Source: Caldifarciminota bacterium
Lineage (GTDB): Bacteria > Hydrothermota > UBA3072
Direction of reading: 5' to 3'
DNA length: 64,000 nucleotides
Assembly: GCA_016930175.1 (NCBI GenBank)
Contig: JAFGHJ010000004.1
Location: 116,129 to 180,128 of the forward strand
Part shown: positions 15,770 to 44,092 of the stretch, one piece after another
How positions within the stretch are numbered: the first letter of the stretch is position 1
How the letters are laid out: the number at the start of each line of letters is the position of its first letter
Program-made: the position numbers and the translations under genes
Notes under the pieces: model-generated
Told to the model about the DNA's origin: nothing
Database searches by the model: none
What the model saw: the letters and a program-made list of their open reading frames with translations, nothing else

Positions 15770-15795
15770 TAAAAAAATAAAAAATCTCTGTGTTT

Positions 15796-15902
15796 CTCTG
15801 TGTTCTCTGTGGCTAACTTAGTTATCAGTCACTAGTCGCCAGTCATTAGTCAAAAAAATGAAAACATTAAAATTATTTGTGATATTCGTGTAATTTGTTG
15901 TT
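15796..15902. repeat. composite repeat, copy 1 (partner 26279-26384, inverted)
   Basis: Contains 9-bp and 7-bp blocks in the same order as the partner; roughly 90% identical by eye. Confidence 0.85.
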
Positions 15903-21125: not shown

Positions 21126-21222
21126 CTTTCGCTGTGCTCTCTGTGTTTTTTCTTTTTTAATACAAAAATTTCTCTGTGTCCTCTGTGGTTAATGTTTTTT
21201 TCTCTGCGTTCTCTGTGGTTGA
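21126..21222. repeat. 9-bp-register repeat cluster (CTCTGTGNN)
   Basis: gctctctgtgtt; ctctgtgtc|ctctgtggtta; ctctgcgtt|ctctgtggtt separated by T-rich spacers. Confidence 0.75.
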
Positions 21223-26115: not shown

Positions 26116-26160
26116 CACAGAGGACACAGAGAGAAGACAAAACACAGAGAACACAGAGAT
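26116..26160. repeat. five contiguous 9-bp-register units
   Basis: cacagagga|cacagagag|aagacaaaa|cacagagaa|cacagagat. Confidence 0.8.
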
Positions 26161-41698: not shown

Positions 41699-41803
41699 TT
41701 TGTCTCTTGGTGCCTTTGTGGCAAATTTGGGCGTTGGGAGTTGGGTTTTTAAACAAAGAGAATTTTTTATAATCTGTGTTAATCTTGTGGAATCTGTGGC
41801 TTA
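41699..41803. repeat. 8-bp and 9-bp register repeats abutting the HtrA-like stop codon
   Basis: ctttgtct|cttggtgc|ctttgtgg; aatctgtgt|taatcttgt|ggaatctgt|gg. Confidence 0.65.
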
Positions 41804-42844
41804 CTTTAACTTTTCGAATTCTTCCTTCAACTCTTCCAGTTCTTCGGAAAGGTGAAGTATTTTTTCGGCTAAGAATTCTTTTAGTTGTTCTTTGTTTTCT
41901 ATAAATTTTTTAGGTGTAATTTTTTCGATTTTGAAATCCGGTAAACTTTTGGGTTCGGCATCTTTCATTTCTGCTAACTTAACAGGGATTTCCATTTTGT
42001 TGTTATCTCTTATAATCTTAAGTGTTACAGTTTTCCCGGGTTCCTCGATCAGAATCATTTCCTTGAGTCTTTCGAGATGAGGTATATTGTTATTGTTGAG
42101 CGCTATAATTATATCGCCTTTTTTTATTCCTGCCAACTCGGCGGGTGAATCTTTCATCACTTCCTTTACGATCACTCCCATATTTAGTGGTGTGTTGTTT
42201 TCGATTATAACACCGAGCCAGGCTCTTTTTACGACACCTATCTTTTTTATCTGTTCCACAGTATTCAAGATGTAGTTAACTTTAACAACCTCTGCAAAGT
42301 TGTTGGTATTTCTGAAAAGATTTTCAGGTAAAACAGAACGATTGACACAGCCTGCCACAATTCCTAAAAGATTTCCTTCAGAGTCGAAAACCCCTGCGCC
42401 ATTATTGCCCGGAGATAAAGGGGCGGAAAGATTAAAAGATATGCCTTCGGGACTTTGAATGAATCCCATGCCGATCAGCCCCATGGAACCGAAAGAATTA
42501 CCGTAAATGTAACAGATTTGCGCCTGTTTAATTTCCCCACCGGGGGATGGAATTTTAAATTCTTTTTGCGCTTTTATTAGATGAATTCCCGTAGATGGGT
42601 CACGTCCTATAACTGATCCTGCGGTAAGGTTCCCGAATCTGTCTTCTATATGTACCGTTTGACCTATTTCTATAAAACCTACAGTTGCAATATGGTTCTT
42701 TTCTACAATGGTACCGGTCATTATTAAATTACCTTCATCGGTACGAAGGGAAACAACATAAGGCGAAATATTTTTTTCAAGTTCTAATACCTCTTGTTCT
42801 ACTTTTGAGAGATAGGTGGCGAGTAAAATTAATATAAGACTCAT
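41801..42844 (-). CDS. HtrA/DegS-like trypsin-fold + PDZ protein, predicted catalytically inactive
   Basis: HtrA-like blocks; His region IATVGFI, Asp region DPSTGIHLIKA, Ser region SPGNNGAG; PDZ GVIVKEVMKDSPAELAGIKKGDIIIALNN. Confidence 0.78.
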   Translation of the reverse strand: MSLILILLATYLSKVEQEVLELEKNISPYVVSLRTDEGNLIMTGTIVEKNHIATVGFIEIGQTVHIEDRFGNLTAGSVIGRDPSTGIHLIKAQKEFKIPSPGGEIKQAQICYIYGNSFGSMGLIGMGFIQSPEGISFNLSAPLSPGNNGAGVFDSEGNLLGIVAGCVNRSVLPENLFRNTNNFAEVVKVNYILNTVEQIKKIGVVKRAWLGVIIENNTPLNMGVIVKEVMKDSPAELAGIKKGDIIIALNNNNIPHLERLKEMILIEEPGKTVTLKIIRDNNKMEIPVKLAEMKDAEPKSLPDFKIEKITPKKFIENKEQLKEFLAEKILHLSEELEELKEEFEKLK

Positions 42845-42865
42845 GATAAGGCTGGAAACCCCTGC

Positions 42866-43297
42866 TTAGAAGCTGCCTCCGGAATAGCTCGTCAAAACAA
42901 AATTTCCTTCTCTTTCATAATAAACTTCTGAATATGGAGTTTTTTCTTCTTTTACGATATAGTATTCTTTTGGGGTTTCCTGTGCGATTGTTTCTTCACT
43001 TCTAAAAAAGGGTGCAATGAGTATTCCCAATATTACCAAAAGGGAAGCGCTAACAGCAAGACGCCTCAGTCGATAAATTTTTCTTCTTGGGAAAATAATA
43101 ATTCGTTCAAATACTTTTTTGGAAGGCTTTGGAATTTCTATTGAGCAGATGCGGGAACTGATATTCTGATAACTTTTGAGAATATTATTGCAATATTCGC
43201 ATTTTTTAATATGTTCTTCAACTTTGAGTATATCAGCTCTTTCTAATTCGGCATCGATATAAGCCGATATTAATTCCTTAATTGATTCGCAACTCAT
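42866..43297 (-). CDS. zinc-finger anti-sigma factor (zf-HC2/ZAS type), single TM
   Basis: AYIDAELE...VEEHIKKCEYC (HxxxCxxC); TM LAVSASLLVILGILIAPFF. Confidence 0.88.
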   Translation of the reverse strand: MSCESIKELISAYIDAELERADILKVEEHIKKCEYCNNILKSYQNISSRICSIEIPKPSKKVFERIIIFPRRKIYRLRRLAVSASLLVILGILIAPFFRSEETIAQETPKEYYIVKEEKTPYSEVYYEREGNFVLTSYSGGSF

Positions 43298-43749
43298 TTA
43301 CTTCCCTCCAAAAAATTTTTTAATTCCTCCCTGGCTCTGCTAAGTCTGGATTTTACGGTACCTTTTTCAATTCCAAGTACTTCTGCTATTTCCTGATATT
43401 CCAACTTATTTATTTCTCTTAAAATTATTACCTCTTTTAATTTCGGCGACAATTTTTTTATCCCTTTTTCAATGTCAAGTTTTAATTCAATATTCTTCTC
43501 TTTTGTTTTTAATTTTAATAAATCCAAGCTAAATTTATTCTTTCTCTTTCTCCAGTGATCATATACCGTGTTTCTTGCTATTGTGAGCAGATAACCCTTC
43601 CAGTTCTGAATATCCTTGTTTGCGGCTCTCATTACTTTAATAAATGTGTCTTGTAAAAGATCTTCCGCTTCTGCTCTATTCTGAACCATCCCATATATAT
43701 ATTTGTATATATAATCGTGATAATCCAGAAATATCTGCTCAATATTCAT
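43294..43749 (-). CDS. ECF-subfamily RNA polymerase sigma factor
   Basis: AEDLLQDTFIKVMRA (region 2), YQEIAEVLGIEKGTVKSRLSRAREELK (region 4). Confidence 0.94.
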   Translation of the reverse strand: MNIEQIFLDYHDYIYKYIYGMVQNRAEAEDLLQDTFIKVMRAANKDIQNWKGYLLTIARNTVYDHWRKRKNKFSLDLLKLKTKEKNIELKLDIEKGIKKLSPKLKEVIILREINKLEYQEIAEVLGIEKGTVKSRLSRAREELKNFLEGSK

Positions 43750-43756
43750 AGGTAAA

Positions 43757-43781
43757 GACGCAATAACTCCCCTATATGTTC
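43757..43781 (-). promoter_or_regulatory. ECF-type promoter GGAAC-N16-CGTC upstream of the sigma gene
   Basis: Minus strand GGAAC ATATAGGGGAGTTATTG CGTC region, 7 nt before ATG. Confidence 0.5.
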
Positions 43782-43855
43782 CATAATATATAGTATTGAT
43801 GAATGTTTTTTATTTTTTTGTAAAGAATGTTTCATTGGAATTCACTGCCTTTTTC

Positions 43856-44092
43856 TGTAAATAAAATATCGAAAATCAAAAAGCAAAATGAACAAAACCA
43901 CACAGAGCCCACCTCTCTCAACCCCAATTTTTTTAACCACTGAGAGCACAGAGGTTTTATTTCTTTTTTTTCTCTGTGTACTCTGCGTTTTTTCTTTTTT
44001 AACAAAATCATTTCTCTGTGTCCTCTGTGGTTAGTCTTTTTTCTTTTTTTTAATCCATTTTCCATTTTTATATTTAAATTTTACATTTTATA
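43856..44092. repeat. nested element: outer TIR-like flanks, inner 9-bp-register inverted pair
   Basis: Left taaataaaatatcgaaaatcaaaaagcaaaatga; right catttttatatttaaattttacatttta; inner AACCACTGAGAGCACAGAG (43936) vs CTCTGTGTCCTCTGTGGTT (44016). Confidence 0.75.

Follow-up and report, generated by a model that had tools for sequence, protein, structure and literature searches.

A triad-less HtrA-like protein in an ECF sigma/anti-sigma operon of WOR-3 and KSB1-type bacteria: a possible sigmaE-like envelope-stress switch

RpoE-type systems are understood via a live sensor protease. What, then, would an HtrA-like protein with a dead catalytic site do in an operon that also encodes a sigma factor and an anti-sigma factor? 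This question is raised by positions 41801-43749 (minus strand) of the window, the whole stretch of 64,000 nucleotides that was analysed, where a compact operon encodes an ECF sigma factor, a zf-HC2 anti-sigma factor and a protein of HtrA fold. The original prediction was that the latter is a PDZ sensor or scaffold controlling sigma release without cleavage. The three genes are:

43294..43749, minus strand: ECF sigma factor, 151 aa (Pfam Sigma70_r2 2.4e-16, Sigma70_r4_2 4.7e-16)
42866..43297, minus strand: ZAS-type (zf-HC2) anti-sigma factor, 143 aa (Pfam zf-HC2 3.6e-8)
41801..42844, minus strand: pseudo-HtrA, 347 aa (Trypsin_2 plus PDZ, fold; triad absent)

The coordinates and reading frames first given for these genes are correct, and Pfam bears out the proposed combination of sigma factor, ZAS-type anti-sigma factor and HtrA-like PDZ protein. 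The sigma factor has regions 2 and 4 only and a TIGR02937 score exceeding the cut-off, which makes it an ECF sigma factor. Its gene overlaps the anti-sigma gene by 4 nt, and a gap of 21 nt separates the latter from the pseudo-HtrA gene. When compared with Pfam, the anti-sigma factor matches zf-HC2 only and the third gene HtrA, matches to RseA and RseB being absent. Neighbouring genes were considered as members of the system and rejected, as the KSB1 upstream gene is holA-like and the downstream genes vary. Three features of the anti-sigma factor matter here:

43190..43213, minus strand: zinc motif H29-x3-C33-x2-C36 (from sequence; retained by nearly all family members)
43004..43060, minus strand: predicted membrane helix, aa 80-98 (Kyte-Doolittle mean 2.54 over 19 residues)
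42869..42886, minus strand: OMP-like C-terminus YSGGSF, proposed PDZ ligand (terminal Phe/Tyr conservation)

The H-x3-C-x2-C motif and the adjacent ECF sigma gene predict a ZAS-type protein, and since its single strong membrane helix spans aa 80-98, the last 45 residues should be periplasmic.

The pseudo-HtrA begins with a short hydrophobic N-terminus, followed by a trypsin-like domain, a PDZ domain and a C-terminal helix:

42242..42760, minus strand: protease-like domain, about aa 29-201 (AlphaFold2 and Foldseek)
42668..42694, minus strand: degenerate His motif HIATVGFIE (alignment)
42575..42601, minus strand: degenerate Asp motif DPSTGIHLI (alignment)
42392..42415, minus strand: degenerate Ser motif SPGNNGAG (alignment)
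41975..42235, minus strand: PDZ domain, aa 204-290, with the carboxylate-loop sequence WLGV (PDZ_2 2.1e-16)
41807..41911, minus strand: C-terminal charged helix, aa 312-346, coiled-coil-like (AlphaFold2 model)

Alongside the PDZ_2 match, Pfam finds Trypsin_2 at 1.8e-6, barely over the curated cut-off, and the sequence matches in the PDB are DegP, DegQ, MucD, AlgW and DegS. An AlphaFold2 model, made from a 16-row alignment with Met1 left out, has a mean pLDDT of 82; Foldseek matches it to DegQ, DegP, MucD and DegS (best E 1.7e-21), and it carries one C-terminal helix in place of the PDZ2 of DegP/DegQ. Judged by sequence and predicted model, a trypsin-like fold followed by PDZ, the window protein belongs to the HtrA/Deg family by descent. 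The PDZ domain is intact, as had been claimed, with W-L-G invariant across a close alignment of pseudo-HtrAs, and the charged, coiled-coil-like tail that had been read from the sequence is modelled as a helix. In WOR-3, stand-alone secreted proteins (L032-L040; ~160-210 aa) that combine a single PDZ with a charged helical tail are also widespread; they resemble the C-terminal half of the pseudo-HtrA and are encoded outside sigma operons.

When aligned with E. coli DegS, E. coli DegQ and canonical HtrAs, the protein has lost all three catalytic residues, as originally proposed: the His slot is occupied by Gly56 or Phe57, hinging on a one-residue gap, the Asp slot by Gly86 and the Ser slot by Asn148. 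No alignment restores the triad. His51 and His88 were considered as a substitute catalytic His and rejected, as neither is conserved even inside the family. The survey of the HtrA-like protein covered 88 genomes with one homologue each (22 WOR-3, 60 from the KSB1-type phylum and 6 other relatives), and among these 88 homologues an intact triad occurs in 0/88, in the same operon or otherwise, and the catalytic His in 0/88. Asp is gone in 82/88; the six that keep it all lack His, and one of them has Ser. A minority retains Ser, for example WOR-3 f7, f9 and f18, and the replacement residues at the triad positions differ between lineages. Read from these alignments, the description "triple-dead" holds for the window's family, several other lineages keeping Ser without His/Asp, and neither the window protein nor the 88 homologues would qualify by sequence as HtrA/Deg serine proteases in the enzymatic sense. 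Apart from L085, where an in-frame stop breaks it, the homologous frame is open throughout the genomes examined, and comparison of the pseudo-HtrA with that of a sister species gives an NG86 dN of 0.23 with dS saturated and a ratio of about 0.05. The intact frames and this ratio led us to reject a decaying gene.

The same lineages also encode canonical HtrAs, and in 24 of these His and Ser are always kept, together with Asp or, in four, Glu. Glu replaces the catalytic Asp, with His and Ser intact, in the canonical HtrA of the window genome (L002:1081-2562, G000:C30), and likewise in L020, L279 and L282. In a maximum-likelihood tree of sampled sequences, from which the catalytic columns were taken out and whose root was not fixed, one branch with support 100/100 parts 40 pseudo-HtrAs from 26 canonical ones. 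This unrooted tree fits a single origin of the dead form.

The sigma/anti-sigma/pseudo-HtrA trio is conserved among relatives, both in WOR-3 and in KSB1-type genomes. It is present in 6/6 genomes of the window's family, also in the order and class to which that family belongs, and in other families of WOR-3, across which its occurrence is patchy; the trio-bearing MAG records are labelled candidate division WOR-3, TA06, Stahlbacteria and Cloacimonadota. KSB1 bacterium L062 pointed to a second phylum, where the operon is very common: 60 KSB1-type loci were read, with the sigma gene identified in 58 and the anti-sigma gene in 59. The trio also occurs in six further relatives outside this phylum, and overall an anti-sigma gene adjoins the HtrA-like gene in 84/88 genomes.

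Some loci depart from this arrangement. L046:1125-3825 (G017) was excluded as a trio, since its protease-like domain is absent and its anti-sigma factor ends in Gln; this sigma/zf-HC2 operon, which encodes a beta-rich secreted protein and a double-PDZ protein, is possibly a parallel PDZ-only version. In L207:5215-9460 (G023), a gene for an 804-aa outer-membrane protein of the TonB-receptor type lies between the anti-sigma-like and pseudo-HtrA genes, while in L208:2040-2483 (G065) the anti-sigma position is held by a membrane protein without H-x3-C-x2-C that ends in Met.

The C-terminus of the anti-sigma factor is the feature that connects it to the PDZ domain. A terminal Phe or Tyr is found in 76/84 trio anti-sigmas (Phe 59, Tyr 17, other 8), that is, in 59/59 from KSB1 and in only 13/19 from WOR-3. 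In the window's family and order the protein ends in LTxYxGG[ST]F, the last residue being L in one case; outside them the tail is strongly divergent, yet its last residue is still aromatic, and 70% have V, I, T or an aromatic residue at the third-last position. In contrast, zf-HC2 proteins outside the trio, from the same KSB1-type genomes, end in Phe/Tyr in 1/23 cases (Fisher 3e-15 against 76/84, a value that ignores relatedness). Further controls gave 1/81 for the trio sigma factors and 5/88 for the pseudo-HtrAs, and inside the anti-sigma tail Phe/Tyr stand at about 7%. Among complete Omp85 proteins from these groups, 29/29 have a C-terminal Phe/Tyr, and that of the window genome ends in HFQIGTTF. 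Thus, the tail resembles an OMP C-terminus, which is the classic ligand of HtrA PDZ domains. The PDZ domains of DegS and AlgW bind YQF and WVF C-termini, including the OMP-like tail of MucE (PMC8545111). From the presence of such a tail beside the gene of a PDZ protein we infer that the two make contact, and its conservation makes PDZ-based control, one half of the original prediction, much more likely.

A predicted promoter upstream of the sigma gene links the trio to other loci:

43756..43782, minus strand: predicted ECF promoter GGAACATATAGGGGAGTTATTGCGTCT, -35 GGAAC, -10 CGTCT (conserved in 6/6 family genomes)

This GGAAC-N17-CGTCT site is the only one within the window. Its last base lies 7 nt ahead of the sigma start codon, and as the predicted -10 element ends at this distance from the ATG in several relatives too, the operon mRNA may be leaderless (window 43750-43782). 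GGAAC-N16/17-CGTCT also precedes the active htrA in all 6/6 family genomes, and in five of the six an hsp20 gene separates the two; the chance expectation is about 0.0004 per region (mononucleotide shuffling). The predicted regulon comes from two pattern searches, of which only sites recurring across genomes are claimed, the looser pattern being near control level in two genomes (G003, G005). Such repeated sites precede genes for a second hsp20, a PPIC-type peptidyl-prolyl isomerase and a bacterial sugar transferase. Among all trio loci with enough upstream DNA (n=69), 53/69 have GGAAC in the interval from -60 to +45 relative to the annotated sigma start, and 6/69 have the reversed word there. 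The KSB1 form is mostly GGAACTTT, which resembles the -35 element of E. coli sigmaE. Since the trio, htrA and the repeated sites share this motif, the trio sigma factor probably drives transcription of its own operon and of genes for quality control. As a separate observation, the window contains the words CTCTGTG/CACAGAG 25 times where about 6 would be expected; they form a short degenerate intergenic repeat with clusters at 43901-44030, 83-130, 15786-15812, 21139-21217 and 26116-26158.

Could sigma release proceed without cleavage, as the other half of the prediction held? Peptidase_M50 of the RseP type is present in 9/9 genomes searched (1.8e-57 for the 421-aa protein of the window genome), so that the site-2 protease of the DegS/RseA pathway has its counterpart here, and an active HtrA is encoded outside the trio operon, in an operon with the same promoter motif. 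With both proteases at hand, final release of the sigma factor probably still needs cutting. This leaves the "without cleavage" part unsupported; a gate on cleavage by other proteases is a likelier role for the pseudo-HtrA than a substitute for cleavage.

We tentatively propose, as the best reading of these data and one that may well be correct, that the trio works as a sigmaE-like switch for envelope stress: the PDZ of the pseudo-HtrA would hold the anti-sigma tail until unfolded OMPs displace it. In this scenario, the ECF sigma factor would be held by a membrane-anchored zinc anti-sigma factor with an OMP-like periplasmic tail, and the exported dead HtrA would bind this tail through its PDZ and shield the anti-sigma factor. 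As unfolded OMPs accumulate, their Phe-ended C-termini would compete for the PDZ; the uncapped anti-sigma factor would then be open to cutting by a site-1 protease, for which the active HtrA is a candidate, and by RseP, and the freed sigma factor would transcribe its own operon, hsp20-htrA and the PPIase and sugar transferase genes. It is also possible, although we hold this broader idea with more reserve, that such sensing by a pseudoprotease extends over several phyla, with an OMP-mimicking anti-sigma tail in the PDZ groove and control by displacement rather than by allosteric activation of a protease. Against the switch count the 8/84 anti-sigmas without a terminal Phe/Tyr, as well as the fact that the tail could serve another PDZ protein, such as the active HtrA or RseP.

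This last point leads to an alternative that we find unlikely but worth keeping in sight: the PDZ that reads the tail would belong to the active HtrA or to RseP, and the pseudo-HtrA would be only their competitor or, as an OMP holdase, an output of the regulon rather than a member of the switch. Phe/Tyr ends would be fitting ligands for any HtrA-type PDZ, periplasmic chaperones are usual members of sigmaE regulons, and the trio operon is probably self-transcribed. However, such ends are confined to anti-sigmas beside a pseudo-HtrA, and the 23 control zf-HC2 proteins, of which one has such an end, come from genomes that also encode this active HtrA and RseP. Rather doubtful, too, is the idea of the pseudo-HtrA as an activating scaffold that binds OMP tails and the anti-sigma factor and hands the latter to the active HtrA or RseP, promoting release. 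It fits the same trio, PDZ and tail evidence, and these genomes encode both proteases, but one PDZ per chain and one tail per anti-sigma suit competition more simply, even if oligomers could hold both ligands. Finally, it is very improbable that the pseudo-HtrA has kept protease activity through unconventional catalysis, or that it is the product of a decaying gene: the Ser kept in some lineages could be taken as a residue of activity, but it is set against the universal loss of His, the near-universal loss of Asp and the lineage-variable replacements, while the open frame and purifying selection speak against decay.

The component parts of the displacement switch are of known kinds. We found no description in the open-access literature of a triad-less HtrA in a sigma/anti-sigma operon; as far as checked, what is new is the dead enzyme in this position, its multi-phylum spread and the OMP-like anti-sigma tail. 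If the switch is true, an HtrA pseudoprotease that is widespread and uncharacterised would gain a role, WOR-3 would have its first predicted envelope-stress regulon, and there would be a clean way to test whether a sigma factor can be controlled through competition between PDZ ligands.

Several known systems share parts of this arrangement. As in E. coli RpoE-RseA-RseB, an ECF sigma factor, a membrane anti-sigma factor and a third periplasmic regulator are encoded in one operon, and the GGAAC promoter, an htrA gene in the predicted regulon and the themes of HtrA PDZ domains and OMP C-termini recur. In contrast, the third gene here, in the operon position of RseB, is a dead HtrA, the anti-sigma factor is a zf-HC2 protein with an OMP-like C-terminus rather than RseA, and the live DegS of the DegS/RseP pathway is absent from the trio operon. 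The H-x3-C-x2-C motif and a gene directly 3' of the ECF sigma gene are as in ZAS proteins of the RsrA/ChrR type (zf-HC2), from which the trio anti-sigma differs by its membrane helix and conserved OMP-like periplasmic C-terminus. Similarly, Pseudomonas AlgU-MucA-MucB-MucD has an HtrA-type gene, MucD, inside the sigma operon, although MucD and AlgW are active proteases. In Pseudomonas, an OMP-like tail that is carried by the periplasmic protein MucE, and not by the anti-sigma factor, activates the AlgW PDZ (PMC8545111). MamO of magnetotactic bacteria is likewise an HtrA-like protein repurposed away from proteolysis (PMC4794232), although it acts in magnetite formation by metal binding, without a sigma factor link. 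In the trio, evolution appears to have kept the sensor domain, lost the catalytic site and placed an OMP-like signal on the anti-sigma factor, in an operon retained by two or more phyla whose members are mostly uncultured.
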